Assembly (NCBI GenBank): GCA_002403895.1
Contig: DHIQ01000224.1
Coordinates: forward strand, 1 to 18,766
Direction of reading: 5' to 3'
Length of the DNA stretch: 18,766 nt
Source: Candidatus Neomicrothrix sp. UBA4742
GTDB taxonomy: Bacteria > Actinomycetota > Acidimicrobiia > Acidimicrobiales > Acidimicrobilacustridaceae
Part shown: in pieces, positions 811-16,408 of the stretch
How positions within the stretch are numbered: the first letter of the stretch is position 1
Layout of the letters: each line of letters opens with the position of its first letter
The notes under the pieces: model-generated
Database searches by the model: none
Told to the model about the DNA's origin: nothing
The model's input: the letters and a program-made list of their open reading frames with translations, nothing else
Program-made: the position numbers and the translations under genes

Positions 811-1053
811 ACCGTGATCCGCCCTGACCTCGACGGCCTGCCTCCCGCCTTCGGAGCCGAAGTGGAGGCCGCAGGGCTGCGCGCCTGTTGGGCCAGTCCC
901 GTGATCGTCCCCGACGACGAGACCCTGCTGGCCTGCGTGATCGTCTGGCGCGACGTCGAGGGCCCGGGCGGGCAAGGGCCGCTACCGGCTCGCCCCGTAG
1001 ACCATTCCCCGGTTGCCCGGTGGTCCTGTCGTCGGGCGCGGGACGGAAACTAG
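811..1053 (+). pseudogene. GAF-domain remnant, out of frame with the PAS fragment
   Basis: In the frame beginning at 811 the translation TVIRPDLDG, then GLRACWASPVIVPDDE and LLACVIVW, resembles the C-terminal half of a GAF domain, as found in bacterial sensor and diguanylate cyclase proteins (the GLRACWS.P... G....Y pattern). It has no start codon or ribosome binding site of its own. It is in a different frame from the PAS fragment just upstream and loses similarity after about position 960, running to a TAG at 1051-1053. I infer it is the other visible piece of the same broken gene. The TAG overlaps the operator of the next gene. Confidence 0.5.
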
Positions 1054-1068
1054 AACCTGTTCTATACT
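1051..1068 (+). promoter_or_regulatory. KstR-like operator overlapping a leaderless promoter
   Basis: TAGAACCTGTTCTA (1051-1064) matches the KstR consensus TnnAACnnGTTnnA exactly. A -10 hexamer, TATACT (1063-1068), overlaps its right edge. Exactly six bases separate the hexamer from the ATG at 1075, so transcription would start at or next to the start codon. A repressor bound here would block the -10 element of the amidohydrolase/Rieske operon. Confidence 0.8.
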
Positions 1069-1074
1069 CGAGGC

Positions 1075-1944
1075 ATGACCATGCCAGGAAACGTCGGCAT
1101 CATCGACCTGATGCTGGGCATTCCCGACGGGCCCAAGAAGGACTGGTACGAGTTCCTCAAGCCCCTCGTCCGTGACCACGAGAGCCGGGACGAGTTCGAG
1201 TTCCCGGCCCAGTACATGTTCAAAGAGGTGCCCGAGGACCCGCACACCGACGACAACGTCGCCTACGTGCTCGGCCAGATGGACCGCTACAACATCGCCC
1301 AGGCCATGATCGGCTACACCACCGGAGGCGACAGCGCCCGAGCGCTGCGGGAGCACCCCGATCGCTTCCTGGCGTCGGTGGGGATCGATCCGAACCGGGG
1401 CATGGACGCGGTGCGCCACCTCGAGCGGGCCGTCGTCGACGGAGGAGCGATCAGCGCCCAGGTGTTCCCGGCCGGCTGCAACCCGCAGGTGCCTATCAAC
1501 GACAAACGGATGTACCCGATCTACGCCAAGTGTGTGGAGTTGGACATCCCCATCTTCGTCTGCGTCGGGGTGCCGGGACCGCGGGTGCCGATGGCTTGCC
1601 AGCACATGGAACTGGTCGACGAGGTGTGCTGGTTCTTCCCCGAGCTCAAGTTCGTGACCCGCCATGGTTGCGAGCCCTGGACCGAGTTGGCCATGAAACT
1701 CATGCTCAAGTGGCCCAACCTCTACTACTCGACGAGCGCCTTCGCCCCCCGGTACTACCCCCAAGCCATCATCGACTACGCCAACACCCGGGGCGCCGAC
1801 AAGGTGATGTACGCCGGCTACTTCCCCATGGGCCTGAGCCTGGAGCGCATCATGCGCGAGCTACCCGACGTCCCGTTCAAGGACGAGGTCTGGCCCAAGT
1901 TCCTCCGTGACAACGCCCGAAAGGTCCTGAAGCTCGATGACTGA
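1075..1944 (+). CDS. Amidohydrolase-2-fold protein lacking canonical metal ligands (paralogue A)
   Basis: 289 aa, cytoplasmic, with the look of the COG2159 amidohydrolase/ACMSD-like TIM-barrel family, whose members are metal-dependent decarboxylases or hydrolases. Recognisable landmarks are HPDRF, IPIF at strand 5, FVTRHG at strand 6, the LYYSTSAFAPR segment and the final DKVMYAGYFP where the family usually has a GSDYP-type motif. By eye the expected N-terminal HxH is replaced (DLMLG), the strand-5 His by Cys (FVCVG) and the final Asp by Tyr, leaving only the strand-6 His. It is closely related to the protein at 8440-9303, especially over the last half. The start at 1075 suits a leaderless transcript; ATG 1081, with GAGG seven bases upstream, is an alternative. 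It is translationally coupled to the Rieske oxygenase downstream. Substrate unknown; steroid or isoprenoid catabolism is inferred from operator and neighbours. Confidence 0.88.
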   Translation: MTMPGNVGIIDLMLGIPDGPKKDWYEFLKPLVRDHESRDEFEFPAQYMFKEVPEDPHTDDNVAYVLGQMDRYNIAQAMIGYTTGGDSARALREHPDRFLASVGIDPNRGMDAVRHLERAVVDGGAISAQVFPAGCNPQVPINDKRMYPIYAKCVELDIPIFVCVGVPGPRVPMACQHMELVDEVCWFFPELKFVTRHGCEPWTELAMKLMLKWPNLYYSTSAFAPRYYPQAIIDYANTRGADKVMYAGYFPMGLSLERIMRELPDVPFKDEVWPKFLRDNARKVLKLDD

Positions 1945-1971
1945 GACCTCGATGACTGAGACCTCGATGAC
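1934..1971 (+). repeat. 15-bp tandem repeat across the gene junction
   Basis: The unit TCGATGACTGAGACC occurs at 1934-1948 and 1949-1963, followed by a partial third copy starting at 1964. It spans the stop of the amidohydrolase gene (1942-1944) and repeats an in-frame ATG for the Rieske gene at 1937, 1952 and 1967. The protein effect is an ETSMT repeat at the N-terminus. Confidence 0.9.
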
Positions 1972-3040
1972 CCAGACGGGAGAAGGGTCGGTGGAGGCTC
2001 GCTACCCGTTCGGCGTCCCGTCGGGTTGGTTCCAGGTGGCCTGGTCCGACGACGTGGCCACCGGTGAGGTGATCCCCCGCTACTACTTCGGCCGCCACCT
2101 GGCGCTGTGGCGTGACGAGCGGGGCACACCCCACCTCAACGATGCGTTCTGTCCCCACCTCGGTGCCCATCTCGGCTTCGGCGGACGGATCAAGGGCGAG
2201 GAGATCGCGTGTCCGTTCCACGGCTGGCAGTTCGACGCCGAGGGCACCAACACGTGCATCCCCTACAGCAATCGCACCAACCAGCGGGCCAAGCTCCGGG
2301 CCTACCCGGTGGTCGAGATCGGCCACTTCGTGATGGCCTGGTACCACCCCGAGGGCGAGCCCCCGAGCTGGGACATCGACGAACCGGCGGAGCTCACCGA
2401 CCCGGAGTACGGCGAGTGGACCAACGTGACCTTCTCGGTCGACGCCGCCGCCCAGGAACTAGCCGAGAACTCGGTCGACGGCCCTCATTTCCGCTACGTG
2501 CACAACACCGAGGTCGTACCGGAGATCCAGAGCTACGAGACCGACGAGTGGCGGGCTCGAATGCGCTCGGTGCAGAGGTTCCCCACGCCGCGGGGGGTGG
2601 TAGACGGCCGCATCGACGTCGACAACCAAGGTCCCGGCTTCGGCGTGACCCGGTTCTCCGGCATCGTCGACACGTTCCTGGTGGGGGCCGCCGTGCCCGT
2701 CGACGCCAACCGCTGCGAAGTGCGGTTCAGCTTCAAGACCCGCAGCCTGGGCGACGCCAAGACCACGTCGAGCGTCGGCCGAGCCTTCGTGACCGAGGTG
2801 TGCAAGCAGTTCGAGGAGGATCGGCCCATCTGGGAGAACAAGGCCCACATCGTGCGCCCGGCGCTGGCCGACACCGACCCGCCGTTCATGAAGTTCCGCA
2901 GGTGGTACGCCCAGTTCTATACCGAGGGCAACAGCGGCGAGCGTGACCTGTGGGCCCCGGCTCCGCCACCACCGGGTGAGCAGCCGGTGTTCATCCGGCC
3001 GGAAGCCACCGCGTCGTCGAAGCACCGCGTCAGCGACTGA
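1937..3040 (+). CDS. Rieske non-heme iron oxygenase, KshA-like
   Basis: 367 aa, close to the usual length of KshA, the oxygenase component of 3-ketosteroid 9-alpha-hydroxylase. The Rieske [2Fe-2S] ligands are visible as C72-x-H74 and C92-x2-H95 (CPH ... CPFH). The catalytic iron site is D181-x2-H184-x4-H189 (DGPHFRYVH) with the distal Asp at about 295 in FEEDRPIW. A reductase partner supplying electrons is needed and is not in this window. The gene overlaps the amidohydrolase stop by 8 nt, indicating translational coupling and control by the operator at 1051. The first 14 residues come from a tandem repeat, so ATG 1952 or 1967 could equally be the start. The family assignment is firm; the exact steroid substrate is inferred, and a related terpenoid or aromatic substrate remains possible. 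Confidence 0.9.
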   Translation: MTETSMTETSMTQTGEGSVEARYPFGVPSGWFQVAWSDDVATGEVIPRYYFGRHLALWRDERGTPHLNDAFCPHLGAHLGFGGRIKGEEIACPFHGWQFDAEGTNTCIPYSNRTNQRAKLRAYPVVEIGHFVMAWYHPEGEPPSWDIDEPAELTDPEYGEWTNVTFSVDAAAQELAENSVDGPHFRYVHNTEVVPEIQSYETDEWRARMRSVQRFPTPRGVVDGRIDVDNQGPGFGVTRFSGIVDTFLVGAAVPVDANRCEVRFSFKTRSLGDAKTTSSVGRAFVTEVCKQFEEDRPIWENKAHIVRPALADTDPPFMKFRRWYAQFYTEGNSGERDLWAPAPPPPGEQPVFIRPEATASSKHRVSD

Positions 3041-3062
3041 CAGGGCCAGGAACCGTAATGCC

Positions 3063-4463
3063 TTAGATGACCCCGTCGGAATGAAGGCGCCGGTAGGCCA
3101 ACCAGCCCGGCAGCATCGGCACCCAGAGCGCCACCAGCCGCCAGATGAGCACCGCCGCCACCGCGGGAGCGGCGTCGACCCCCGCCGCGATCAGGCCGAG
3201 GGCCAGGACCGGTTCGACCAGCCCCACCCCGTCGGGCGTCGGGGCCACGACCACCGCCACCCCGGCCACCAGCGACGCCGCCATGATCGCCACCCATGAC
3301 CCGGACCCGCCGAATCCGTACACCAGGGCCAGCACCACGACGCCGTTGACCAACGCCAGGACCACCGCGGCGATGGCCGAGGGCAGCATCAGCAGGGGGT
3401 CCGCCGCGGCCAACGCCGATACCGCGTCGCGGTCGGGACGGATCACCCGGTTGCGATAGCGGCGGGGGGCGGTGACCAGCCCCACCAGCACCAGCACCCC
3501 TGCCGCCAACCACACCGGCCACCCGCGTTCGAGTCCGGTCCCCCACGTCGGGCTCACCAGCAGCGCGGCGAAAGCGAACACCAACAGGAGCAGCGCATGG
3601 GCGCCAACGGCCAAGACGTCCAGCACCGCCACCCGGCCCACCGCCTCACGCCGAGGCACCCCCGCCCGGGCCAACTGGTGCACCGTCAACCCATCGGGTC
3701 CGAACTCCGGCAGCAGACGGCCCGTGAACGATGACGCCACCGCCGCCGTCAGCACCCCGCGGAACGCCCCGCGGCCCGCCCGCAGCCCGTCCGTGAAACC
3801 CAGCGTCTCGACCGCCGCGATCGGATACGAGAGGGCCAGCAACACCACGGCCGCGGCCAACCATCCCATCGACAGCTCCCCCAATGCAGCCCGCACCGCC
3901 GACCACGGCGTAACCCAGGCCAGCCCGATCATTGCCAGGATCCCCACCCCGACGACGACCCGCACCTCCACCCACTCCAGGTCGGGCAGCCGTTTGCCCA
4001 GATCACCCTCTGGGATCACCGGGCGGTCCCAACCGTCCCCTGGCACGTCCGGCGGGCGCTCCCGCAGCAGGGTCTCGAACCGCGGCGCCCGGACGTAGGC
4101 CAGGCGATCGTCGATCAAGCCGAGGGCGGCGCCCACCAACCCCGATCCGATGCCGATCGCCAGGTTGAACGCCCCATGGCCGAGCGCGTCGTCCACCCGT
4201 ACCCGACACCGGGCCTGGGTCCGCAGGGCAGCGGCGTCGGGCGGTTCGTTCACCGAGCCGGGCCCGGGGATGCGGACGTCGTTGGTGTTGTGGATGGCAT
4301 ACAGCGCCGGGCTCCCGCAGGTCTGCACGCCCGGGTTGTCCACCGGACGCAAGGCGAAGAACGTCGCCACCGCCAGCGCCACGAACGACAGCACCAGCAG
4401 CACGCGGCCGATGGTCCACAGTGTCGATCGGCGGGTGATCGGTGCCGACGCGGGCACGCTCAC
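3063..4463 (-). CDS. LPG-synthase-type (UPF0104) multi-pass membrane protein
   Basis: 466 aa with about nine or ten membrane segments. The first (about residues 17-39) is followed by a hydrophilic extracytoplasmic stretch of roughly 60 residues containing two cysteines (CGSPALYAIHN and RCRVRVDD), then another segment and a soluble loop up to about residue 170. The remainder resembles the lysylphosphatidylglycerol-synthase transmembrane or UPF0104 family: the FTGRLLPEFGPDGL, PTPDGVGLVEPVL and IWRLVALWVPMLPGW patterns fit the family's P-x-P-x-G-x-G-x-x-E and R-x3-x-W-x-P signatures. Such proteins move or modify membrane lipids; the substrate here is unknown. The start is GTG 4463. It lies 18 bp after the PI-PLC-like lipoprotein gene on the same strand, so the two are probably co-transcribed. 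The 3' end converges on the Rieske gene with a 22-bp gap. Confidence 0.82.
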   Translation of the reverse strand: MSVPASAPITRRSTLWTIGRVLLVLSFVALAVATFFALRPVDNPGVQTCGSPALYAIHNTNDVRIPGPGSVNEPPDAAALRTQARCRVRVDDALGHGAFNLAIGIGSGLVGAALGLIDDRLAYVRAPRFETLLRERPPDVPGDGWDRPVIPEGDLGKRLPDLEWVEVRVVVGVGILAMIGLAWVTPWSAVRAALGELSMGWLAAAVVLLALSYPIAAVETLGFTDGLRAGRGAFRGVLTAAVASSFTGRLLPEFGPDGLTVHQLARAGVPRREAVGRVAVLDVLAVGAHALLLLVFAFAALLVSPTWGTGLERGWPVWLAAGVLVLVGLVTAPRRYRNRVIRPDRDAVSALAAADPLLMLPSAIAAVVLALVNGVVVLALVYGFGGSGSWVAIMAASLVAGVAVVVAPTPDGVGLVEPVLALGLIAAGVDAAPAVAAVLIWRLVALWVPMLPGWLAYRRLHSDGVI

Positions 4464-4481
4464 GCAACCATCTCTCGGTGG

Positions 4482-5630
4482 TCAGCCCGTCGACGGGGTG
4501 GAGGAGGTACTCGGGCTCGTGGGCGGAATGGGCGAGTTTTCGATCCACGAGTTCTCGCACCCGGATGGCCCGTTGATCGGGTTGCATCGCGCCGGCGTCC
4601 CGCCGGGGATCTGCGCCACATAGGTCGAGCCGTTGTAGCGGGCGGTCATGCCTGGCAACGGGTAGTCGGTGCTCACCCATTGGGCCCCGCTGGCCAACGC
4701 CGCCTCGCGCTGGGTGGTGTCCCCGCTGGTCGGGGTGGTGACCTCCGAGTCGGCCCGTGTGCGGATCATGTAGCCCTTGCGCACCTCGTCCTGGATGCGG
4801 GCCAGGTTCGTCCCCGTCGGGTCGTTCTCCTTGAGGAAGGCGGCGTCGGGCTTGCCGGGGGTGCTCGGTGGGAACGCCACCCGGCCCTCCAGCGACGGAT
4901 GCCCACCGGCGGTGTACTCGTCCTCCCGGTTGTCGAGCACGAACATGACCTTGCCCCGAGAGTCCGCCAGTCGTGGCCACCCGGTGGTGAGCACTGCGGA
5001 CTCCAACGTCGGCTTGCCACCCCGGACATCGTCGGGGGTGATCAGGCGGTCCGGCGGGAATACCGAGCGGATCTCGGCATCGATGCTGTCGAACTGCGCC
5101 GGCGTGAGCGGGTTGTTGTCCTTGATCTCGAGCTGGATCCCGATCGGGATGGCGTCCGGATGGGCGTCGGACCAGGTCTTCACCACGGTGAGGCACTCCA
5201 CCAGCGTGAGGCAGGTGGAACCCTCGTCGATGGCCTCGATGTGGAACACCTTGGACCCCACCACGCCCTTGGGCCGGAACTTCTGGCCGGTCGGGTCCTG
5301 GGTGATGTCCAGCTCCACTTGGCGGATCCCCTGGTTCTGGAACTGCTGGTCCAACGGGTCATGGGAGTAGGCCAGCGTGGCCGCCTCGGCGCTGATGGCG
5401 ATGTACTTGGCCAGGTTCTCCGGCGTCGGCTCGACGTGGTAGGCGTTGTGCATCCCCAGCACCTGGAGCTGGTTGATCCGCAAGTCGGCTTGGGCTGCGC
5501 TCTCGGTGGTGGCGGTGACGCCACCGGCCGACGATCCGCCCGAACCTGACGAGCTGCACCCCGCCACGGCGGCCGCCAGCCCCGTGACGAGAACCAGGGC
5601 CAGCATCCGCTGTCTCGCATTCGACCTCAC
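4482..5630 (-). CDS. Ca2+-dependent phosphoinositide phospholipase C-like lipoprotein
   Basis: About 382 aa, exported and lipid-anchored. The N-terminus has Arg residues, a hydrophobic core and the lipobox VAGC (Cys about 25), followed by a Ser/Gly linker. The mature part resembles the PI-PLC-C1 family: LGMHNAYH (His about 61) begins the barrel, QVELDITQD (about 105-112) and LEIKD (about 168-172) carry candidate acidic metal ligands, and KVFHIEAID supplies the second candidate catalytic His (about 130). Family members cleave phosphoinositide-type headgroups; the natural substrate in this bacterium is unknown. The C-terminus is a Pro/Ser/Thr tail. The start is uncertain: GTG 5630 keeps a positively charged n-region, TTG 5636 has a better-spaced GGGGGA, and ATG 5606 would remove the Arg residues. 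It is divergent from the beta-lactamase-like gene and upstream of the LPG-synthase-type gene. Confidence 0.8.
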   Translation of the reverse strand: MRSNARQRMLALVLVTGLAAAVAGCSSSGSGGSSAGGVTATTESAAQADLRINQLQVLGMHNAYHVEPTPENLAKYIAISAEAATLAYSHDPLDQQFQNQGIRQVELDITQDPTGQKFRPKGVVGSKVFHIEAIDEGSTCLTLVECLTVVKTWSDAHPDAIPIGIQLEIKDNNPLTPAQFDSIDAEIRSVFPPDRLITPDDVRGGKPTLESAVLTTGWPRLADSRGKVMFVLDNREDEYTAGGHPSLEGRVAFPPSTPGKPDAAFLKENDPTGTNLARIQDEVRKGYMIRTRADSEVTTPTSGDTTQREAALASGAQWVSTDYPLPGMTARYNGSTYVAQIPGGTPARCNPINGPSGCENSWIENSPIPPTSPSTSSTPSTG

Positions 5631-5732
5631 CGGCAATGTAGGTCCCCCAGAGTCGTCTCGATGCTCGAACGTACCACCGGCCCGGGAGCCCATCGGGGCG
5701 CTACGGTGCCACCGACCACCCGGGGGAAGACG

Positions 5733-6908: not shown

Positions 6909-6910
6909 TC

Positions 6911-6926
6911 CCGAGCTGACGCTCGG
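6911..6926. terminator. Hairpin in a convergent gap
   Basis: CCGAGC (6911-6916), loop TGAC and GCTCGG (6921-6926) form a perfect 6-bp stem two bases after the stop of the serine hydrolase gene and before the convergent end of the anti-sigma candidate. There is no T run, so termination is inferred from position and stem strength. Confidence 0.5.
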
Positions 6927-6970
6927 CGGCTGGGCTGGCGCCACCCTCACCGGGGCCAGAGCCGCTCCCC

Positions 6971-7633
6971 CTACCTGCCGCCTCCGTAGCCGTCGCCCCG
7001 GTTGCCGCCACCCGACCCCGGCCCATCGCCCTTGGGAGCCGAGCCCGTGCCGTCGTTCTTCGGATTGCCGCCGTTGGGAGCGTTCTTCGGATCAGCGGGG
7101 TTCGTCTTGGGATCACCCGTCGGGTCGGGCTTGGGCGACTGGTGGCTCGGATCGACGCCGGCGTGACCGTCCCCCGGGATCGTCGTCGTCGCCGGTCCGG
7201 CGCCGGTCGTCGAGGTCGGAGCGAAGGTGGTGGTCTCCCCACCACCGGGGCGGGTGTCCACGCTGGTCCCGTCGGCCGGCACCGGGAGGTTGATACCCAC
7301 CGGTCGACAGGCCGAGGCCACGGCGCGTTGGAGAGGATCAGGCAGCGTGCCGGCGGCGGCGGCCCCAGCCGAGCCGAGCACCACCGCCCCGGCCAGGCCC
7401 GCGGCGATCAGACCCTTGCGCGACCGGTAGGCGGACAGGGAGATAGCGGACCGCGTCCGCCCGGCCTGGCGCGCCGCCCCCATGGCGGCCACATGGCGCT
7501 GGGCGGTGGCCGGGTCGGGCTCGATGAGGAAAGCGGCGCGCAGGTCGGAAGCGATCGCCTCCTCGGCCGGGCTCAGCGCCCGGTCGTGGTCCCGAAGGTC
7601 GTTCCTACCGTCCATCACAAGAGCAATCGCCAT
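6971..7633 (-). CDS. Single-pass membrane protein, probable anti-sigma partner, with disordered tail
   Basis: About 220 aa. The cytoplasmic N-terminal part (to about residue 80) contains a short helical motif, LSPAEEAIASDLRAAF ... DPATAQRHVAAM, of the kind found in proteins encoded directly after ECF sigma genes in actinobacteria. One membrane segment follows (around GLIAAGLAGAVVLGSAGAAAAG), then an extracytoplasmic region with one Cys and a long Gly/Pro/Asn/Asp/Lys-rich tail with repeated PKNDG-like elements ending in GYGGGR. It lacks the classical HxxxCxxC zinc motif of ZAS anti-sigma factors. The role as anti-sigma factor is inferred from gene order only. The start is either ATG 7633 or ATG 7615; neither has a strong ribosome binding site. 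It lies 64 bp downstream of the sigma gene on the same strand. Confidence 0.7.
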   Translation of the reverse strand: MAIALVMDGRNDLRDHDRALSPAEEAIASDLRAAFLIEPDPATAQRHVAAMGAARQAGRTRSAISLSAYRSRKGLIAAGLAGAVVLGSAGAAAAGTLPDPLQRAVASACRPVGINLPVPADGTSVDTRPGGGETTTFAPTSTTGAGPATTTIPGDGHAGVDPSHQSPKPDPTGDPKTNPADPKNAPNGGNPKNDGTGSAPKGDGPGSGGGNRGDGYGGGR

Positions 7634-7697
7634 GGTGAGCCGATTTGATCCTGCCTCATGCGAACTTGTCCCGGTCGGACGGCAGATCGTCGGGTGC

Positions 7698-8415: not shown

Positions 8416-8433
8416 GAGAACGTGTTCTAGTGT
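8416..8433 (+). promoter_or_regulatory. KstR-like operator overlapping a leaderless promoter
   Basis: GAGAACGTGTTCTA (8416-8429) matches TnnAACnnGTTnnA in all positions except the first (G for T). A -10-like TAGTGT (8428-8433) overlaps its right edge, and six bases separate it from ATG 8440. This is the same geometry as at 1051-1075 and indicates a leaderless, repressor-controlled start for the second amidohydrolase. Confidence 0.75.
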
Positions 8434-8439: not shown

Positions 8440-9303
8440 ATGAGCATGCCGACCGGGATCCCGGTGATCGAGACGTTCCTCGGCTTCCCCAGCCGCAACC
8501 GGGCCGACGTCTACAAGTTCCTGGCGCCGCACCTGCGTGACGAGGAGAGCAAGGGCTTCTCCTTCCCCGCCCAATACCTGTTCAAGGACGTGCCCGCCGA
8601 CCTGGACGACAATGTCGACCCGGTGGCCGTCGTGATCGACAACCTCGATCGCTTCGGCATCGAGCGGGGCATGATTTCGGTCGGGCCCGGCAAGGATGAC
8701 GCCGAGCGGGCCATCCGCAACCACCCCGATCGCTTCATCACCTCCATCTCGGTCGACCCCAACGATGGAATGGACGCGCTGCGCCAGATGGTGGCGGCGT
8801 ACGAGACCTACGGCATCAAGGCGGTGACCACCTTCCCGGCCGGCGCCCAGGTCGCCATCAACGACAAGCGCTACTACCCGATCTACGCCAAGTGCTGCGA
8901 GCTCGACATCCCCATCTTCTCCTGCGCCGGGACCCCCGGACCCCGGGTGCCGTTCGAGCCGCAGAAGGTCGAACACATCGACGAGGTGTGCTGGTTCTTC
9001 CCGGAACTCACCTTCGTCACCCGCCACGGGTGCGAGCCGTGGACCGACCTGGCCGTCAAGCTGATGCTGAAGTGGCCCAACCTCTACTACTCGACCTCGG
9101 CCTTCGCCCCCCGCCACTACCCGAAGGCCATCATCGACTACGCCAACACCCGGGGCGCCGACAAGATCCTCTACGCCGGCTACTTCCCCGCCGGGCTGAC
9201 CTACGACCGCATCTGGGGCGACATGCCCAACGTCGGCTTCAAAGACGACGTCTGGCCCAAGTTCCTGAGGGAAAACGCCCTCAAGGTCTTGAAGCTCGAC
9301 TGA
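8440..9303 (+). CDS. Amidohydrolase-2-fold protein lacking canonical metal ligands (paralogue B)
   Basis: 287 aa, paralogue of the protein at 1075-1944. The two agree best from residue about 140 onward, where NDKR, YPIYAKC, DEVCWFFPEL, FVTRHGCEPW, KWPNLYYSTSAFAPR and IIDYANTRGADK are shared. The N-terminal half has diverged strongly. The same canonical metal positions are altered: ETFLG where DxHxH is expected, Cys for the strand-5 His (FSCAG) and Tyr in the last motif (YAGYFP), with the strand-6 His kept. It is monocistronic: it starts under its own KstR-like operator and ends 6 bp from the convergent thiolase-fold gene. No ribosome binding site precedes ATG 8440, consistent with leaderless translation; ATG 8446 is an alternative. 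Reaction and substrate unknown. Confidence 0.88.
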   Translation: MSMPTGIPVIETFLGFPSRNRADVYKFLAPHLRDEESKGFSFPAQYLFKDVPADLDDNVDPVAVVIDNLDRFGIERGMISVGPGKDDAERAIRNHPDRFITSISVDPNDGMDALRQMVAAYETYGIKAVTTFPAGAQVAINDKRYYPIYAKCCELDIPIFSCAGTPGPRVPFEPQKVEHIDEVCWFFPELTFVTRHGCEPWTDLAVKLMLKWPNLYYSTSAFAPRHYPKAIIDYANTRGADKILYAGYFPAGLTYDRIWGDMPNVGFKDDVWPKFLRENALKVLKLD

Positions 9304-9309: not shown

Positions 9310-10476
9310 TCAAGGCTTGTCGGCCCCCACGACCCACATGGCGAAGAACTGCGAGCCGCCACCGTAGGCATGGCCCAGCGCGGTACGAGCCCCGTCGATC
9401 TGGTGCTCACCGGCCTGGCCCCGCACCTGCATGGCCGCTTCGGCAAAGCGCAGCATGCCCGAGGCGCCGATCGGGTTGGACGACAGCACGCCGCCCGAGC
9501 AGTTCACCGGCAACTCACCCGTCATCTGGGTGACCCCGTCCTCGACGTAGCGCCAGCCTTCGCCGATGGGGGCAAAGCCCAGGTTCTCCAGCCACATGGG
9601 CTCGAACCAGGAGAACGGGACGTACATCTCGACCACGTCGATCTCCCGCAGCGGGTCGGTGATGCCCGCTTGGGCGAAGACGTCGGCGGCGCAGTCCTGG
9701 CCGCCTTGGGGGTTCACCTGGTCGCGTCCGGCGAACATCGTCGGCTCGCTGCGGAGCGCGGTGCCCTTCACCCAGGCCGGCGCTCGTCCGGCGGCCGCAG
9801 CGGCGTCCCCACCGGCCTCGTTGGTCAGCACCATGGCGCAGGCCCCATCGGAGGACGGGCACGTCTCCGAGTAGCGAATCGGGTCCCACAACATCATCGA
9901 GTCCTTGACGGAATCGAACGTGATGCCTTCCTCGTGAAGATGGGCGTAGGGGTTCTTGAGGGCGTTGAGTCGATCCTTGAGGGCCACCAGGATGCCGATG
10001 TGGTCGGGCGCGCCCGAGCGCGCCATGTACGAGCGGATGTGGGGAGCGAAGTACCCGCCGGCGCCGGCGTGCATCGGCGGCTGGAACGGCATCGACACCG
10101 ACAGCGCCCACATGGCCTCTGACTCGGACTGCTTCTCGAAGGCCACGGTGAGCACCCGTTCATGGATTCCCGACGCGATGAGGTCGCTGGCCACGATGGC
10201 GGTCGATCCCCCCACCGAGCCGGCGGTGTGCACCCGGAACATGGGCTTGCCCACCGCGCCCAGCGCGTCGGCCAGGTACAGCTCCGGCATCATCACGCCC
10301 TCGAAGAAGTCCGGGGCCTTGCCGATCACCACGGCGTCGATGTCCGACCACGTCATCCCGGCGTCGCCGAGGGCGCGCCGCGCGGCGGTGCGCACCACGC
10401 CCGCGATCGACCCGTCGTTGGTGGACTGGTGCTTGGTCTGGCCGATGCCGACGATGGCTACTCGTTCCTTGCCCAT
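9310..10476 (-). CDS. Thiolase-fold lipid-transfer/aldolase-type protein (Ltp-like, copy 2)
   Basis: 388 aa, thiolase superfamily of the SCP-x/Ltp type. The fold is clear (VAIVGIGQTKHQ start, DGACAMVL, GGVLSSNPIGASG, GHAYGGGSQ end), but the catalytic Cys of thiolases is missing: the VHTAGSVGGSTA segment (about 82-93) has Gly/Ser there, and the active His of GHPxG is Asn (N334). Tyr residues lie at about 285 (EMYVPF) and 371 (HAYGGG). Ltp2-type steroid side-chain retro-aldolases work with Tyr residues and a DUF35 partner, so a retro-aldol role is inferred. The start ATG 10476 overlaps the preceding stop in TGATG and has GGAGGG upstream; in-frame extension to 10626 is rejected. Last gene of a four-gene coupled operon. 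Confidence 0.88.
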   Translation of the reverse strand: MGKERVAIVGIGQTKHQSTNDGSIAGVVRTAARRALGDAGMTWSDIDAVVIGKAPDFFEGVMMPELYLADALGAVGKPMFRVHTAGSVGGSTAIVASDLIASGIHERVLTVAFEKQSESEAMWALSVSMPFQPPMHAGAGGYFAPHIRSYMARSGAPDHIGILVALKDRLNALKNPYAHLHEEGITFDSVKDSMMLWDPIRYSETCPSSDGACAMVLTNEAGGDAAAAAGRAPAWVKGTALRSEPTMFAGRDQVNPQGGQDCAADVFAQAGITDPLREIDVVEMYVPFSWFEPMWLENLGFAPIGEGWRYVEDGVTQMTGELPVNCSGGVLSSNPIGASGMLRFAEAAMQVRGQAGEHQIDGARTALGHAYGGGSQFFAMWVVGADKP

Positions 10477-11531
10477 CACTCGCCCTCCAGGACGCACACG
10501 AGGTTCTGTTGCAGGCACGGCCCCGACGTGGCGTGGGCCACTGCCCGGTCGCCACCGCCGCGGCTGATGCGGGTGGCGGCCTCTCCGATACGGATCAACC
10601 CGGCGGTCATGATCGGGTTGGCGCACAAGGGCCCGCCGGACGGGTTCACGTCCACGCCGTCGGCCAGACCGAGGGCGTCACCGATGATCAGTTCTTGATG
10701 CGAAAAGGGCGCGTGCAGCTCGGCCAGGTCCACTGGTCCGTCGGCCACCCCGGCCCGGGCCGCAGCCTGTTCGGTGGAGACCGACCGGGTGAGATCGCGC
10801 AGACCCAGGGCGTGGGCCTCGATGCGATGGTCGATGCCTCGGATCCAGGCCGGGCGATCGCTCAACTCCCGAGCGGCATCACCGGCGGCGATGACCACGA
10901 CGGCCGCCCCGTCGGTGATCGGCGGGCAGTCGTGCTTGCGCAGTGGCGCCACGAACTCGGGCTCCGCCAGCAACGCTGCGGGATCCACCTCACCACCGAG
11001 CTGGGCGTAGGGATTAGTGGCGCCCGCCCGGCGATTCCGGGCCACCACCTCGGCCATCTGTTCAACCGTGAAGGTTCCGGCCTCGAGTCCCACCCGGGCC
11101 TGTAGGGCCGCCATCGACACCGGGTCCAGCCACAGCGGGCCGACGGTGTAGGGATCCATCTGGCGGCTCAGCACCCGGCGGATGTCACCCGGCGACGACT
11201 TGCCGTAGGCGTAGATGAGGGCGACGTCGGTCTTGCCCATCTGCATCTTGACCCAGGCCTCGTACAGGGCCCAGGCCCCGTCCATGTCGACGTGGGATTC
11301 AGAGATGGGCGGCCACGGCCCGAACGCGTCCAGCGACATCACGAACGAGAACGGCTGGCCGGCCAGGTAGTCCGAGCTGGCCGAGCAGACGAAGTCGATT
11401 CGGTCCTTGGGGATGCCGGAACCGGCGAGCGCCTCGCCCATGAGCGGCATCAGCATCTCGACTTCGTTGATGTCGGAGACCTCACGGGCGTGATGGGTCT
11501 GGGCGAACGACACAACGGCGACGTCACGCAT
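10476..11531 (-). CDS. Thiolase-fold lipid-transfer-type protein (copy 1)
   Basis: 351 aa, more diverged and shorter than copy 2. It keeps the thiolase core (DVAVVSFAQT start, DGAAVVVIA, ELHAPFSHQE, NPSGGPLCANP, HATSGPC). The nucleophilic Cys position is occupied by a SHVDMDG segment (about 79-85) and the catalytic His by Asn (N305). Cys303 and Cys339 remain near the pocket. A Claisen thiolase reaction is therefore unlikely; a partner or aldolase-type subunit of copy 2 is the best inference. Its ATG shares one base with the stop of the DUF35 gene upstream (TGATG), and its own stop shares one base with the start of copy 2, so the proteins are probably made in fixed ratio. Confidence 0.85.
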   Translation of the reverse strand: MRDVAVVSFAQTHHAREVSDINEVEMLMPLMGEALAGSGIPKDRIDFVCSASSDYLAGQPFSFVMSLDAFGPWPPISESHVDMDGAWALYEAWVKMQMGKTDVALIYAYGKSSPGDIRRVLSRQMDPYTVGPLWLDPVSMAALQARVGLEAGTFTVEQMAEVVARNRRAGATNPYAQLGGEVDPAALLAEPEFVAPLRKHDCPPITDGAAVVVIAAGDAARELSDRPAWIRGIDHRIEAHALGLRDLTRSVSTEQAAARAGVADGPVDLAELHAPFSHQELIIGDALGLADGVDVNPSGGPLCANPIMTAGLIRIGEAATRISRGGGDRAVAHATSGPCLQQNLVCVLEGE

Positions 11532-12052
11532 CAGGCGTTGTCCTTGTAGCTCTCGAACGACGCGTCGGGTTCGCCGTTGGGTCGGAAGTGACGGATGCTC
11601 TCGAGGGTCGGGCCGATCTCGTCGTCAGGCACCCAGACCGCCTCGACCCGCATGCCCGAGTGCACCTGGTCGTAGGGGACCTCCTGGATGAGGTGCATGA
11701 TCGGGATGTCGGAGCCGTCGAGCAGGATCAGCGCGCCCACATACGGAATCTCCATGAGCGTGCCCATGAACGCCACGTTGACCACGCAGAACGAGGTGAC
11801 GGTGCCGGTGTGGGCCAGCTCGACGTCCTCCTCGGTGGGCACGCCGTCGGTGGGGCACGACCCGCGGGGCGGCACATAAACCTTGTGGCACACCGGGCAG
11901 CGTTGGCCGACCAACCGCTTGTTGGCCACGTTGTGCAGGAAGCGGCTGCTGGCCCGACCGGCGGTGTAGACGTAGTCGAGGCGGGCCGGGGTGCGGATGG
12001 ACTTGACCGGCTCGACGCCCTGGAGGCTGGCCGGCAGAGTGACGTCACTCAT
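11531..12052 (-). CDS. DUF35/OB-fold protein with zinc ribbon
   Basis: 173 aa. A helical N-terminus is followed by a rubredoxin-like zinc ribbon (RCPVCHKVYVPPRGSCPTD, about residues 51-69; three Cys, with a non-Cys residue at the usual fourth place) and an OB-fold domain (HTGTVTSFCVVN, YVGALILLDG, VEAVWVPDDE). DUF35 proteins bind acyl-CoA and pair with thiolase-fold enzymes, as ChsH2 does with Ltp2 in cholesterol side-chain cleavage. Here it precedes a thiolase-fold gene with a 1-nt overlap and follows another DUF35 gene with a 4-nt ATGA overlap. The role as an acyl-CoA-positioning subunit is inferred from that family precedent. Confidence 0.88.
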   Translation of the reverse strand: MSDVTLPASLQGVEPVKSIRTPARLDYVYTAGRASSRFLHNVANKRLVGQRCPVCHKVYVPPRGSCPTDGVPTEEDVELAHTGTVTSFCVVNVAFMGTLMEIPYVGALILLDGSDIPIMHLIQEVPYDQVHSGMRVEAVWVPDDEIGPTLESIRHFRPNGEPDASFESYKDNA

Positions 12053-12591
12053 TCGGGGACCCCCTCGGGCTCGAAGCAGGCGATGTCGAGGATGTGTCCG
12101 ACCCGATAGCCGCTGTCGTCACTGCCCGCGCTCGTCCCCCCATCCGCTTCGGTGTCGACGTCGGCCGGGCGGGCGGGCAGCCAGCGGGCCTTGACCCGCA
12201 TGCCGGTGGCCATGACCGCCTGATCGCCGTCGGTGTCGACGGCGTGCACCAGGTCCGTATCGGCCCCATCGAGGCGGATCATGGCCCAGGCGAAAGGGCG
12301 ATCGAGGGGCTGGTCGGTGAGGGGCTCGTTCACCCAGCACCACGTGGTCACGACGCCGGCGTCACCCACCTCGACGATCTCCGTGAGCTCCTCGGCGGTG
12401 ACCGGGTCGTACTCCTGCGGCGGCACGATGACCCGGCCATCGGCGCCCTTGATGCCGACGATGATGCCCTCGCGCATGCCGGTCATGAACGCCCCGATGA
12501 CCGGTCCAGTGGTCCGGCTGAACGGATACTCGATGACGTTCGGAGCCTTCAGGACGTCCCCGCCCGTGGGTGCTCCAGCGGTGCTGCTCAC
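12049..12591 (-). CDS. DUF35/OB-fold protein without zinc-ribbon cysteines
   Basis: 180 aa from GTG 12591, chosen because GAGGGGGA lies six bases upstream; the open frame continues to 12801 but overlaps the divergent synthetase gene. The region that forms the zinc ribbon in relatives is present in outline (FMTGMREGIIVGIKG ... RVIVPPQEYDP) but contains no cysteine. The OB-fold part is intact (VGDAGVVTTWCWV, FAWAMIRLDGAD, RVKARWLP) and is followed by an acidic Gly-rich insertion (about 146-165). First gene of the DUF35/DUF35/thiolase/thiolase operon, transcribed from the divergent promoter region containing the operator at 12634. It probably forms a heteromer with the next gene's product. Confidence 0.85.
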   Translation of the reverse strand: MSSTAGAPTGGDVLKAPNVIEYPFSRTTGPVIGAFMTGMREGIIVGIKGADGRVIVPPQEYDPVTAEELTEIVEVGDAGVVTTWCWVNEPLTDQPLDRPFAWAMIRLDGADTDLVHAVDTDGDQAVMATGMRVKARWLPARPADVDTEADGGTSAGSDDSGYRVGHILDIACFEPEGVPE

Positions 12592-12633
12592 GTTGATTCC
12601 CCCTCGGTCCCGGGTTGGCCTGCGGCAGAGTAC

Positions 12634-12647
12634 TGTAACGCGTTCTA
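12634..12647. promoter_or_regulatory. KstR-like operator between divergent units
   Basis: TGTAACGCGTTCTA is an exact match to TnnAACnnGTTnnA. It lies in the 100-bp gap between the DUF35 start (GTG 12591) and the acyl-CoA synthetase start (ATG 12692). -10-like hexamers flank it on both strands (TACTTT at 12646-12651 on plus; TACTCT on minus at 12632-12627), so one site could control both directions. Confidence 0.78.
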
Positions 12648-12691
12648 CTTTGCCGCCAGGCACGCTGATGACGATCCCGGGGGGACAAGCG

Positions 12692-14245
12692 ATGACCGAG
12701 TTGGGCTTCTGGAAGATGGCCACGGCTGATCCCGAGCGGATGGCGCTCATCACCCCCGACGGGCTGGAACACCGCGCCGGCGAGCTGCTGGCCGCCGCCA
12801 ACCAGATCAGTCACGGTCTCCGCGCCCTCGGTCTCGAGCGGGGCGACACGGTGGCGGTGGTGTTGCCCAACAGTTTCGAGATGCTGGCCGTCTACCTCGG
12901 GGCGACCCAGGTCGGCCTCTACATAACCCCCATCAACCACCACCTCGTCGGCCCGGAGATCGCCTACATCGTCAACGACAGCGATGCCAAGGTGCTGGTG
13001 GGCCATGAGCGCTTCGCGGCGGAGCTGGAGAAGGCCATCACCGAGCTCGCCACGCTGCCGGCCGACCGCCGCTTCGCGCTCGGCACGGTCGACGGCTTCC
13101 GCCCCTACACCGAGCTGCCTGAGGGTCAACCGACCACGGCTCCCGATGACCGCATCGCCGGTGCGCCCATGCACTACACGTCGGGCACCACCGGGCGACC
13201 CAAGGGGGTCAAGCGCAAGCTGGTGGACATCGACCCCGACGTGCTGGGTGAGCTCTACAGCGGCTTCCAGGGGATGTTCGGTGTACAGCCCCTCGACGGA
13301 AACGTGCACATCACCGGCTCTCCGCTCTACCACACGGCCGTGCTCATGTGGACGGCCAACGCGCTGCACATGGGCCATGCCGTGGTGGTCATGGACAAGT
13401 GGTCGCCCGGGAGCATGCTCCAGCTCATCGACCGCCACGGCGTCACCACCAGCCACATGGTGCCCACCCAGTTCCACCGGATGCTGGCCCTGCCCGAGGA
13501 CGTGCGCATGTCCTACGACGTGTCGTCCCTGCGCTGCATGGTCCACGCCGCCGCCCCGTGCCCGCCTGACGTCAAGCGCCGGATGATCAAGTGGTGGGGC
13601 GACGCCATCATGGAGTACTACGCGGCGACCGAGGGGGGCGGCACGATCGTCACCGCCGCGGAGTGGATGACCAAGCCGGGGACGGTGGGCAAGGCGTGGC
13701 CGGGCTCGGAGATCCGCATCCTCGACGAGAACGGCCAGGACGTGGTCACCGGCGCAGAGGGCACGGTGTACATGAGCCTCGCCCTGGCCGACTTCGAGTA
13801 CAAGGGCGACGCGGCCAAGACGGCCGAGAACCGCACTGCCGGCTTCTTCACCGTCGGGGACTGGGGCCTGCTCGACGAGGACGGGTACCTGTTCCTCAAG
13901 GACCGCAAGTCCGACATGATCATCTCGGGCGGGGTGAACATCTACCCGGCCGAGATCGAGGGGGAGCTGCTCACGTTCCCCAAGATCGGCGACGCGGCCG
14001 TCTTCGGCATCCCCAACGACGACTGGGGTGAAGAGATCAAGGCGGTCATCCAGCCGGCCGAGGGCATCGAGCCCGACGACGCGCTGCGCGACGAGATCAT
14101 TGGCTTCTGCATCGAGCGGCTGGCCAGCTACAAGCGGCCGAAGTCGATCGACTTCGTGCCGGAGCTCCCCCGCGACCCGAGCGGCAAGCTCTACAAGCGC
14201 AAGCTGCGCGACCCCTACTGGGAAGGTCGCGGCGCCCGCATCTGA
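12692..14245 (+). CDS. Acyl-CoA synthetase (FadD family, AMP-forming)
   Basis: 517 aa, ANL superfamily. It activates a carboxylic acid to its CoA thioester via an acyl-adenylate. The P-loop A3 motif is YTSGTTGRPKG (about 162-172), the A5 region is MEYYAATEGG, the A8 hinge is LKDRKSDMIISGGVNIYPAEIE, and the A10 lysine lies in SGKLYKRK (about 497-504). ATG 12692 follows GGGGGGA (12679-12685) at ideal spacing and gives the MTELGFWK opening common in this family; ATG 12668 is in frame but lacks such a site, and the frame back to 12233 is spurious. It is divergent from the DUF35/thiolase operon across a KstR-like operator. A steroid or branched side-chain acid is an inferred substrate. Confidence 0.93.
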   Translation: MTELGFWKMATADPERMALITPDGLEHRAGELLAAANQISHGLRALGLERGDTVAVVLPNSFEMLAVYLGATQVGLYITPINHHLVGPEIAYIVNDSDAKVLVGHERFAAELEKAITELATLPADRRFALGTVDGFRPYTELPEGQPTTAPDDRIAGAPMHYTSGTTGRPKGVKRKLVDIDPDVLGELYSGFQGMFGVQPLDGNVHITGSPLYHTAVLMWTANALHMGHAVVVMDKWSPGSMLQLIDRHGVTTSHMVPTQFHRMLALPEDVRMSYDVSSLRCMVHAAAPCPPDVKRRMIKWWGDAIMEYYAATEGGGTIVTAAEWMTKPGTVGKAWPGSEIRILDENGQDVVTGAEGTVYMSLALADFEYKGDAAKTAENRTAGFFTVGDWGLLDEDGYLFLKDRKSDMIISGGVNIYPAEIEGELLTFPKIGDAAVFGIPNDDWGEEIKAVIQPAEGIEPDDALRDEIIGFCIERLASYKRPKSIDFVPELPRDPSGKLYKRKLRDPYWEGRGARI

Positions 14246-14464
14246 GGTCCCCGACCCCAGGTCGCGCCGACCCCGGTCCGGGATCGTGCCACGAACCACC
14301 GTGGCGGTAGCCAACAGCACGAACTCATCCACGGCGGACCGCGTGGGCTCCGATGCCGAGCAGGACCTCGATGGCCGGTGCCAGCACGAGATGCAGGCGT
14401 CCACCAACCGCACGATCCCGAATGGGGGGACGGGCTTGGGTGACGGGCCGGGCCGCAGCCGGAC
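14246..14464. other. Intergenic gap with a small hairpin
   Basis: This 219-bp gap separates the converging synthetase and PH-domain genes. GCCACG (14288-14293) and CGTGGC (14300-14305) form a 6-bp stem with a 6-nt loop and could act as a weak terminator; there is no T run. I see no credible coding sequence, RNA gene or repeat in the rest. Confidence 0.4.
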
Positions 14465-14872
14465 TCAGGCGTCGAGGGCGGTGCGGTGGCGCTCGATCTC
14501 CTCGTACAGCCCCGTGAGGTTCTGGACCGGCGGCAGCTCTACCCGCTCGCCCGAGTTGAGCTCGATCTCGAGGTTCCAAAAGCCGGGGATCACGTCGGTG
14601 GCGAGGATGCGATACCAGGGGATGTCACGCCGGCGAGGCCAGTTCTTCTGGATCCGCAGACCCTCCTCGCGCACCACCAGCACCGCACCGAGCAGGGTAC
14701 GGATCCCCAGCACCGCGCTCACCAGGCCCACGAGGCTGAGCAGCCGCATCCACCACTCGATACCCGAGGCCAGCACGAGCGGGATGAACAGCAGCGCCAG
14801 CACGGCGAGGATGACCACGCGGACCCAGCGGGCCAGAGGTGAGATGCGGAGCGGGTACCGCTGGGGAGCCAC
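14465..14872 (-). CDS. Two-TM protein with bacterial PH-like domain
   Basis: About 135 aa from GTG 14872. Two membrane segments (about residues 14-35 and 38-58) are followed by a cytosolic bacterial PH-like domain: VVREEGLRIQKNWPRRRDIPWYRI, then FWNLEIELNSGERVELPPVQN and a C-terminal helix. Small actinobacterial proteins of this layout are common and of unknown function. The open frame extends to 15133, but that extension is Arg-rich and without character, so the start just before the first membrane segment is preferred; it has no convincing ribosome binding site. It lies on the same strand downstream of the acyl-CoA dehydrogenase and may be read through from it. Confidence 0.68.
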   Translation of the reverse strand: MAPQRYPLRISPLARWVRVVILAVLALLFIPLVLASGIEWWMRLLSLVGLVSAVLGIRTLLGAVLVVREEGLRIQKNWPRRRDIPWYRILATDVIPGFWNLEIELNSGERVELPPVQNLTGLYEEIERHRTALDA

Positions 14873-14954
14873 GTTGCCATTGTCGCATCGAGTGGCTCCG
14901 ATCCCACCGCGCCGGAACCGGACGGTTGGGTTGGCCAGCTCGCTGCCGGCTGGA

Positions 14955-15155
14955 TCAACCCGACGGGCGTCCGCCCCACGCGCTGATCGTGAGCGGTCCG
15001 AGGATGCGGAACCTGGCCACCTCGCCCGGATCATCCGACACCCCGTAGCCGTATTCGCCGCCCGTTGCCGGACCGCCCGTCCCAGGACCGTCCGCCACGT
15101 CACCCGGCTGACCACTGCCGTCACCCCCACCAACGGGAGGCGCGGGCTCGGTCAC
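14955..15155 (-). CDS. Possible small Gly-rich protein
   Basis: 66 aa, not recognised. The GTG at 15155 overlaps the stop of the acyl-CoA dehydrogenase gene in GTGA, a common coupling arrangement. The first 35 residues are Gly/Pro/Asp-rich; the rest (EYGYGV ... ARFRILGPLTISAWGG) alternates hydrophobic residues and faintly recalls the opening strand of SARP-type regulators, but it is far too short to be one. It could be a genuine coupled small protein or an open frame kept by high GC content. Confidence 0.35.
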   Translation of the reverse strand: MTEPAPPVGGGDGSGQPGDVADGPGTGGPATGGEYGYGVSDDPGEVARFRILGPLTISAWGGRPSG

Positions 15156-16381
15156 GACCGGCGCGTCTCCCGCCAGGGCACGCCCTTGTCCTCGCGGGCT
15201 TCGGCGGGGAGCCCCAGCGCCCGTTCACCGATCATCGTGCGATGCACCTCGTTGGTGCCGCCACCTATCCGCGAGGCGAACTGACCCATCACCTGCATCT
15301 GCCAAAACCCGGCTTGGGGCGCGTCCGCCCCGGCGAGCATGCCGGCCGCCCCTTCGAGGTCCTGGGCCAGCTCCACCCGGCGCGACAGCGCAGTGGTGAA
15401 CGCGTTCTTGAGCACCGAGGGATCGGGAGGCGTGCCCCGCTTGGTCATGATCGCCGTCTGCATGCGCAACTGCAGGAACGTCAGGATGCGCTCCCGGGTG
15501 AACACGTCGGCCAGGCGCTGGCGCACAATCGGATCCTGCGTGCGGCCGAAAGCCCGAGCCACCTCCACCACCGCGTCGAACGTGCTGGCCTGCCCTGCCC
15601 CACCGATCATCCCCGACTCGCTGGCCAGCACCGTCCGGGTCACCGCCCATCCGCCGTTGACCTCACCGACCACATTGGCGCCAGGCACGCGGACGTCATT
15701 GAGGAAGACCTCATTGAAATGAGAGAGGCCGGTGGCCTGCACGAGCGGCCGGACCTCGATCCCCGGGGCGTGCATGTCCACGATGAAGAAGGTGATGCCC
15801 TTGTGCTTGGGGGCGTCGGGATCGGTCCGGGCGATGAGGATCCCGTAGTCGGCGTGGTGGGCCGCCGAGGTCCACACCTTCTGGCCCGTCACCACCCACT
15901 CGTCGCCGTCCCGCTCCGCCCGCGTGGCCAGGGCGGCCAGATCGCTCCCCGCCCCCGGCTCGCTGAACAGCTGGCACCACCGCTCGTCGCCCCGCAGCAG
16001 CGGTCCCAGGTAGCGGGCCTGCTGCTCGTCGTTCCCGTGGCGCATGATCGGGGGGCCCACGAGTTGCTGGGACGCACCGATGAACCCGGTGGTCACGTCG
16101 AAGCGGCGGACCTCCTGGTTGAAGATGATCGACTGGCTGGGCGTGCCGCCCCGGCCGCCGAAGGCCTTGGGCCAGGCGATACCCGCCCACCCGTTGTCGT
16201 AGAGGACCGCCTGCCACTCGTGGCACCGGCGGTGGTACTCGGCCTCCTCGTCGGGATCGGTGGCCACGGCGCCGCGCGACCAGTCGGCGTCGGTGCCGGT
16301 CTTGAGCTCGGCGTGCGATTCGAAGAAGGCGGTGACCTCGGCCCGGAACGCTGCTTCTTCAGGGGTGTCCTCGAAATCCAT
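15152..16381 (-). CDS. Acyl-CoA dehydrogenase (FadE type)
   Basis: 409 aa, FAD-dependent, full length for the family. The N-terminal helical domain, the QLFSEPGAGSDLA signature (about 137-149), the KVWTSAAHHADYGI strand and the C-terminal QFASRIGGGTNEVHRTMIGER segment are all present. The C-terminal position that is Glu in medium-chain enzymes is Gly (GGGTNE), while a Glu in VLASES (about residue 255) sits where isovaleryl-type and steroid ChsE-type enzymes carry the catalytic base. This suits bulky or branched acyl-CoA substrates. A KstR-like operator lies 14-27 bases upstream of the ATG with a very short leader. Mycobacterial relatives in steroid degradation work as heterotetramers with a second, degenerate subunit; the gene at 17716-18690 is a candidate partner by inference. 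Confidence 0.92.
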   Translation of the reverse strand: MDFEDTPEEAAFRAEVTAFFESHAELKTGTDADWSRGAVATDPDEEAEYHRRCHEWQAVLYDNGWAGIAWPKAFGGRGGTPSQSIIFNQEVRRFDVTTGFIGASQQLVGPPIMRHGNDEQQARYLGPLLRGDERWCQLFSEPGAGSDLAALATRAERDGDEWVVTGQKVWTSAAHHADYGILIARTDPDAPKHKGITFFIVDMHAPGIEVRPLVQATGLSHFNEVFLNDVRVPGANVVGEVNGGWAVTRTVLASESGMIGGAGQASTFDAVVEVARAFGRTQDPIVRQRLADVFTRERILTFLQLRMQTAIMTKRGTPPDPSVLKNAFTTALSRRVELAQDLEGAAGMLAGADAPQAGFWQMQVMGQFASRIGGGTNEVHRTMIGERALGLPAEAREDKGVPWRETRRS

Positions 16382-16390
16382 GGAAGTCCA

Positions 16391-16408
16391 ATACTAGAAC
16401 ACGTTCTC
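16391..16408 (-). promoter_or_regulatory. KstR-like operator at the acyl-CoA dehydrogenase promoter
   Basis: TAGAACACGTTCTC on the plus strand (16395-16408) matches TnnAACnnGTTnnA except at the last base. Read on the minus strand it is GAGAACGTGTTCTA, identical to the 14-mer at 8416. A -10-like TAGTAT (minus, 16396-16391) overlaps it and lies nine bases before ATG 16381, so the leader would be only a few bases. The chagasin-like gene starts 107 bp away on the other strand. Confidence 0.78.

Follow-up and report, generated by a model that had tools for sequence, protein, structure and literature searches.

Predicted operators of a KstR-like regulator in an Acidimicrobiales genome and the non-classical catabolic genes that they precede

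The mycobacterial repressor KstR is associated with the motif TAGAAC(N2)GTTCTA (available text of Kendall et al. 2007, PMC1995591). That study's positive sites include TGTAACATGTTCTA, by electrophoretic mobility shift assay (EMSA), and GAGAACACGTTCTA, by reverse transcription-quantitative PCR of the flanking gene, and sites lie at fadE and kstR, Rv3520c/Rv3521 (F420-dependent oxidoreductase), fadD19/echA19, and cyp125. After Rv3520c/Rv3521 come ltp4 and ltp3 (gene names as in PMC6429209). A comparison of 31 genomes traced KstR back to the Mycobacterium-Rhodococcus ancestor, with KstR paralogues in more distant organisms (available text of PMC3388012). Here we analyze an 18,766-nucleotide stretch of DNA from Candidatus Neomicrothrix sp. 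UBA4742 (the window), which covers 18.8 kb at the left end of a 23.7-kb contig in a 3.55-Mb Acidimicrobiales metagenome-assembled genome that is 79% complete. The genome shares with Mycobacterium the 14-bp palindrome, operators at fadE and kstR, and sites at genes for CYP125, acyl-CoA ligases, and oxidoreductases. Four such palindromes in the window are very probably the operators of a KstR-like TetR repressor encoded on contig 84 of the same genome.

A preliminary description of the window had reported four near-palindromes, two exact and two with one outer mismatch, and no further copy. Pattern matching recovers precisely these (Table 1): all four fit TAGAACnnGTTCTA, and against TnnAACnnGTTnnA two match exactly and two differ at one outer base. 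A weight matrix was built on 75 sites from relatives, none from this genome (consensus AACTAGAACnnGTTCTAGTT); these training sites had been preselected for lying near gene starts, for an intact AACnnGTT core, and for at most two mismatches. With this matrix, the weakest window site scores 23.4 bits and the next-best place in the window 7.7, and none of 1,000 first-order Markov shuffles of the window reaches the weakest site (best shuffle, 22.2 bits). When one mismatch to the loose pattern is allowed, seven places are found against 0.88 expected, a number reached by none of 200 shuffles; the three additional places (2801, 4573, and 5242) have a broken AAC or GTT core. The sites lie 10 to 44 nt from start codons, 42 and 44 nt on the two sides of the divergent gap for operator 3, a spacing that would suit a repressor lying over the promoter and start; the gene calls come from a simple purpose-made caller, and start positions are approximate. 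Pfam and NCBIfam matches agree with the gene names given earlier. The intervening genes (lysylphosphatidylglycerol-synthase-like, PI-PLC-like, beta-lactamase-fold, and sigma factor) have no such site, apart from a chagasin-family gene that shares one gap, again as described.

The candidate regulator is a 207-residue protein with TetR_N (PF00440) and TetR_C_20 (PF17925) domains, one of 33 TetR_N places in the genome. Its best PDB matches are KstR chains (E 4.7e-26, residues 21 to 204), followed by 3bjb, and at E 1e-10 its sole match in its own genome is itself. An operator, TAGAACGCGTTATC (L021:6116; two outer mismatches, 27.0 bits), lies 5' of a unit in which a fadE remnant precedes kstR. The fadE frame (L021 6138-6518) has 126 codons that match a 413-aa relative in three separate stretches, the result of decay or of an assembly fault. 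All 13 testable relatives have an operator with zero to two mismatches 1.2 to 1.3 kb upstream of kstR and a fadE-like gene in between; the set consisted of 14 loci with KstR 59 to 68% identical, of which one (L060) was dropped because its contig is too short. Whereas fadE and kstR form one operon here, they are divergent in the available mycobacterial account. Across 75 loci with KstR relatives, 43 sites of at most one mismatch were found versus none in three shuffled sets, many of the more distant loci being without such a site. Contig titles name Acidimicrobi-, Ilumatobacter, or Aquihabitans for 40 of these 75 loci and mostly Actinomycetota, Actinobacteria, or Actinomycetes for the remainder. 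The isolate Aquihabitans sp. G128 (L105) has a KstR relative with 46% identity. At E 1e-10 there are 2,668 KstR-like proteins, and some among the best 120 are annotated "cholesterol catabolism regulator"; a protein 88% identical to the regulator is annotated "Acidimicrobiales bacterium." Two contigs titled "Candidatus Binataceae" (L114 and L117) carry KstR-like genes (37 to 38% identical) and, about 3.8 kb upstream of them, an operator with one mismatch, possibly through transfer outside Actinomycetota or through mis-binning.

For each of the four window units, orthologues with an operator in front exist in some relatives (genomes and loci are given by our G and L numbers), which, together with the regulator, upholds the earlier assignment of the sites to the KstR type. 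The fadE1 orthologues of G002 (79% identical) and G004 (69%) have an exact operator upstream. At the DUF35-thiolase unit or its gap to fadD, operators of one or two mismatches occur in G059, G041, G004, and G038; none was found at this unit in G012 (L196). For amhB-type genes the operator is exact in G006, G008, and G009, has one mismatch in G012 and two in G002, and was not found in G005; in G006 a KshA-like gene follows. Among 80 genomes searched, 48, this one included, have amhA-type genes. When their loci were read in 30 genomes, nine had an operator 30 to 78 bp upstream (eight exact, one with two mismatches); for the best loci of the 29 other genomes the counts are seven exact, one with two mismatches at 30 bp, and 21 without. 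All operator-bearing amhA loci are in genomes with a close KstR, G012 excepted, and none of the 17 amhA-type loci read in genus g12, which has no KstR-like match, has an operator. G059 holds kstR, fadD, DUF35-thiolase, and amhA-kshA units with three operators within 11 kb, and orthologues of several LLM genes and of AmhD retain exact sites in relatives. Over 41 genomes, exact sites and a close KstR occur together in 11, KstR alone in one, sites alone in two, and neither in 27 (Fisher p 2.8e-7); the corresponding counts for the amhA operator in 30 genomes are 8, 2, 1, and 19 (p 6e-5).

The regulon had been called local, a view that does not survive the wider scan. The matrix was run on 430 kb of loci from this genome, many of them chosen for pattern matches. 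There, 17 places exceed the maximum of three shuffled sets (20.2 bits), spread over the window contig and ten others (Table 1), and 13 places score at least 23.4 bits. The CYP125-type P450 gene is cut by a contig end; its product has CYP125 as best PDB matches (E 4.6e-89 and 7.2e-59), and its operator-like site is one core base off. An acyl-CoA ligase on contig 35, above the NF005863 cut-off, has an 18.8-bit site at its start, and this ligase and the short-chain dehydrogenase of contig 60 are probably regulon members. The top site of these loci, at 32.5 bits (L006, contig 47, 6808-6821), is followed after 140 bp by an FMN riboswitch (RF00050, 91.6 bits) and ribD, a region spanning L006 6962-8238. 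Riboflavin and F420-precursor synthesis may share its control with the flavin/F420 oxidoreductases; in 13 relatives, a scan of the site loci turned up no FMN riboswitch.

The operators group two amidohydrolase-like proteins, AmhA and AmhB, with a KshA-type oxygenase, which gives a pathway context to two proteins of unknown function. The preliminary description had gone further and put both in the same pathway. Their common regulon stands; as to the pathway, only AmhA is encoded in one operon with the KshA-like oxygenase, and AmhB shares no more than the operator in this genome. The oxygenase has a KshA_C domain and KshA as best PDB matches (E 5e-42). Metal-dependent Amidohydro_2 members are defined by an HxH motif on strand 1 and an Asp on the last strand. 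In an alignment of 18 AmhA/B-type sequences, no His occupies either HxH position and the last-strand Asp is replaced by Tyr, while Y247-F248-P249 and His195 are invariant. Judged by sequence, AmhA and AmhB lack the usual metal-binding motifs, in contrast to LigJ, ACMSD, and decarboxylase-type amidohydrolases; AmhC and AmhD have Asp in place of this Tyr and keep DxH. The AmhA model is a TIM barrel (mean pLDDT 78; residues 28-49 poor), closest by Foldseek to 3irs and then to LigJ and decarboxylases, and by VIA-align to 3cjp. The 3irs protein (BB4693, Bordetella), itself of unknown function, has Ala at the Asp position. At the thresholds applied, NCBIfam assigns no family to AmhA, AmhB, AmhC, AmhD, or the DUF35 proteins. 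A protein 91% identical to AmhA is annotated "Acidimicrobiales bacterium," and AmhA-type proteins have at least 7,999 matches, some of those listed being from Myxococcota, Binatia, and Limnocylindrales; this wide spread implies a protein family older or wider than the regulation.

KshA_C genes number 19 in eight of nine genomes searched. Of these, 12 adjoin a gene matching AmhA, AmhB, AmhC, or AmhD (BLAST) and eight have an operator ahead of the gene or its unit, some loci being cut. AmhA-type proteins and KshA-like oxygenases may thus constitute a functional pair, the former perhaps acting on the oxygenase product by hydrolysis, C-C cleavage, or hydration. KshA-type/amidohydrolase-fold pairs are of several kinds (L269, L280, L281, L282, and the AmhA/AmhB loci) and also occur without a close KstR and without operators.

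Side-chain genes that bear operators are those for CYP125 (partial), FadD, and the thiolase-DUF35 proteins. The thiolase families concerned, NF006180 and NF005924, are presumably Ltp3 and Ltp4; in work by Wilbrink from 2012, Rhodococcus rhodochrous reportedly required ltp3 and ltp4 for sterol side chains branched at C24. On this assumed equivalence, the two systems resemble each other in having two adjacent thiolase-like proteins, here in an operator-bearing unit with DUF35. Mce genes had been expected in the regulon and were not found: PF02470 has no match in this genome (G000) or in G002, G004, G005, G006, G008, G009, G012, and G059, and in the same nine genomes nothing exceeds 43 bits for the HsaC-type dioxygenase (TIGR03213). 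A Mycobacterium kyorinense control gave 377, 328, and 224 bits with TIGR03213; its best dioxygenase locus (L267) is also without an operator, so the control shows only that the enzyme type is detected. G038 and G041 have 6 and 12 PF02470 matches. Their HsaC-like matches (about 240 bits) were set aside, as the loci are without operators and lie beside genes read, unscanned, as another aromatic pathway. A 3-ketosteroid dehydrogenase (KstD) homologue is present in this genome (E 2.2e-104) with no operator on its 3-kb contig, and a second FAD_binding_2 protein lies on contig 30; no protein in the homologue's score range was found in G006. At 79% completeness, this genome by itself gives little weight to an absence, and the argument is carried by G006 (100% complete), G059 and G004 (both 96%), and G002 (95%).

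The regulon is therefore not the classical cholesterol regulon, given that Mce and the HsaC-type dioxygenase were not found in the nine genomes. Side-chain steps are recognizable, while ring steps and uptake are not classical, and, unlike in Mycobacterium, a conspicuous place is taken by amidohydrolase-like proteins and several LLM oxidoreductases. With neither HsaC nor Mce4 found, a ring-degradation route of a new type, or else a new substrate, becomes a concrete hypothesis. We lean toward a sterol-like lipid as the substrate of the regulated pathway. The regulator could instead sense another lipid, such as branched or isoprenoid acids, hopanoids, or other terpenoids, an alternative that touches the substrate alone and to which we give a lesser yet considerable chance. 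It draws on the absence of Mce and HsaC-type genes from nine genomes with regulator or sites, on that of a KstD-scoring protein from the complete G006, on a regulator score half of the KstR equivalog cut-off, and on the number of LLM oxidoreductases and amidohydrolase-fold proteins; a sterol-like lipid is favored by the partial CYP125-type P450 with its imperfect site, by thiolases above the cut-offs of both families, and by the KshA-like oxygenase and the KstD homologue.

With a sterol-like lipid as substrate, a KstR-like dimer would sit on each operator over or beside the promoter and start codon and block amhA-kshA, amhB, the DUF35a-b-thiolase unit, fadD, and fadE1, and a breakdown intermediate of the lipid would release it, as described for mycobacterial KstR. 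The fadE remnant-kstR unit, the LLM oxidoreductases, two more amidohydrolases, and CYP125 would be under the same control elsewhere in the genome. The side chain would be removed by C26 oxidation, CoA activation, and beta-oxidation or retro-aldol cleavage. We infer DNA binding, inducer, and substrate. A broader proposal, which we put forward as speculative and doubtful in its entirety, is that KstR control is far older than the Mycobacterium-Rhodococcus ancestor and governs a non-classical catabolism of sterols or sterol-like lipids in Acidimicrobiales. CYP125 and the thiolase-DUF35 proteins would remove side chains; KshA-type Rieske oxygenases paired with metal-free amidohydrolase-fold proteins, together with LLM flavin/F420 oxidoreductases, would replace HsaA-D on the rings; uptake would be independent of Mce4, and the riboflavin/F420-precursor operon perhaps co-regulated.

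The sites and the regulator are well supported and point to a regulon of the KstR type at a great distance from Mycobacteriales. The origin published for KstR (available text of PMC3388012) can be reconciled with these data only by transfer, or if KstR is narrowly defined and the protein described here is a paralogue. The same operator and a KstR-like regulator in Acidimicrobiales, a different class, make that date testable and offer a means of delimiting lipid-catabolic regulons across a large group of which most members are uncultured. The main texts of two surveys of steroid degraders, PMC4810484 and PMC5790920, as available, do not contain "Ilumatobacter," nor that of the latter "Acidimicrob," and no paper pairing "KstR" with "Acidimicrobi" was found among the open-licence papers searched.

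Several observations weigh against the assignment of the sites to this regulator. The protein scores 144.3 bits against the NF033703 KstR equivalog (profile positions 3-185 of 185), whose cut-off is 280; a KstR-like TetR protein is thus present, as the preliminary description had anticipated, at a score below the NCBI equivalog, and we term it KstR-like, not a KstR equivalog. One site of Mycobacterium that carries a GAGAAC half, located before Rv0223c, was negative by EMSA (available text of PMC1995591). Related genomes enter the Fisher tests as if independent, and the E 1e-40 threshold for KstR was set post hoc. Individual genomes depart from the association: G012 (71% complete) has four exact sites and only a weak KstR match (E 3.5e-24), G018 has one exact site and no KstR-like match, G048 lacks exact sites despite its KstR-like gene, and G055 and G061 have a KstR-like gene and an amhA without operator. 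Another TetR protein might read the window sites, the KstR-like protein reading its own operator only, and the 33 TetR_N places of the genome and the sites of G012 would allow for this. We consider it improbable, since a single regulator-operator pair explains both, exact sites track the KstR-like gene across genomes, and the half-site equals the published KstR half-site (available text of PMC1995591).

Nor is the bare pattern discriminating by itself. In genome-wide pattern scans, exact TAGAACnnGTTCTA occurs five times versus none for the reversed control; with one mismatch the forward count equals the control (nine each), and with two it falls below (63 versus 131), so that the pattern is unspecific without position and flanks. 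The loose pattern has 28 places versus nine for the control, of which 11 are intergenic or at starts, five were not read, and 12 lie within called genes and were rejected as operators. A one-mismatch count over 80 genomes was dropped as a test, as genomes with and without KstR were not told apart by it; matches, and control matches too, are numerous in some genomes richer in A+T. That the four sites are chance palindromes beside catabolic genes, as 12 intragenic places among the 23 read and mismatch counts no higher than the control might suggest, can be dismissed for practical purposes, the weakest site lying beyond all 1,000 shuffles and the positions being conserved at orthologous promoters; the frequency check raised by the preliminary description did not refute the operators.

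Table 1. Features of the window (positions in the window) and the 17 places above 20.2 bits in loci of the genome, the four window operators included (by contig)
Feature	Location	Strand	Description	Match or score
Operator 1	1051..1064		TAGAACCTGTTCTA, exact; 10 nt 5' of first amhA ATG (1075)	29.2 bits
amhA	1075..1944	+	Amidohydro_2-fold protein; alternative start 1081	PF04909 E 2.4e-27
KshA-like Rieske oxygenase	1937..3040	+	Frame overlaps amhA (one operon)	PF19298 E 1.3e-33
Operator 2	8416..8429		GAGAACGTGTTCTA; 10 nt 5' of amhB	27.5 bits
amhB	8440..9303	+	amhA paralogue, 63% identical	PF04909 E 2.4e-24
Thiolase-type protein	9310..10476	-		NF006180 (PRK08313), 674.7 bits (cut-off 514)
Lipid-transfer/thiolase-type protein	10476..11531	-		NF005924 (PRK07937), 531 bits (cut-off 419)
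DUF35 protein b	11531..12052	-	DUF35/ChsH2-type OB-fold protein	PF01796, PF12172
DUF35 protein a	12049..12591	-	DUF35/ChsH2-type OB-fold protein; first gene of operon	PF01796 E 1.7e-11 (longer frame)
Operator 3	12634..12647		TGTAACGCGTTCTA; divergent gap DUF35a/fadD	23.4 bits
fadD	12692..14245	+	Acyl-CoA ligase	PF00501 E 6.8e-64 (longer frame)
fadE1	15152..16381	-	Full-length acyl-CoA dehydrogenase	PF02770, PF02771, PF00441
Operator 4	16395..16408		TAGAACACGTTCTC; 13 nt 5' of fadE1, gap common with chagasin-family gene	25.2 bits
Chagasin-family gene	16516-17181		Shares fadE1 gap with operator 4
Sites at fadE1, fadE remnant-kstR, and DUF35/fadD gap				>20.2 bits
Sites at amidohydrolases	AmhC, contig 198; AmhD, contig 4		AmhA, AmhB, AmhC, AmhD	>20.2 bits
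Sites at five LLM oxidoreductases	Three on contig 198, one each on contigs 165 and 15			>20.2 bits
Site at CYP125 gene	Contig 35		Partial gene	>20.2 bits
Site at short-chain dehydrogenase	Contig 60			>20.2 bits
Site at NAD-dependent epimerase	Contig 117			>20.2 bits
Site at 185-aa protein	Contig 122		Unscanned	>20.2 bits
Site at FMN riboswitch-ribD operon	Contig 47			>20.2 bits

Among the remaining window features, the 25 NCBIfam matches listed for fadD are all under their own cut-offs. A DUF983 protein, a shorter acyl-CoA dehydrogenase, and another FadE are encoded at 17204-18690 of the window and at L191 286-1470, with no operator; the shorter dehydrogenase scores 126 bits to IpdE2 (cut-off 450). 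A 135-aa protein at 14465-14872 has no Pfam match, and relatives 47 to 48% identical to it lie near fadE1/fadD in G012 and G004 (L196 and L201).

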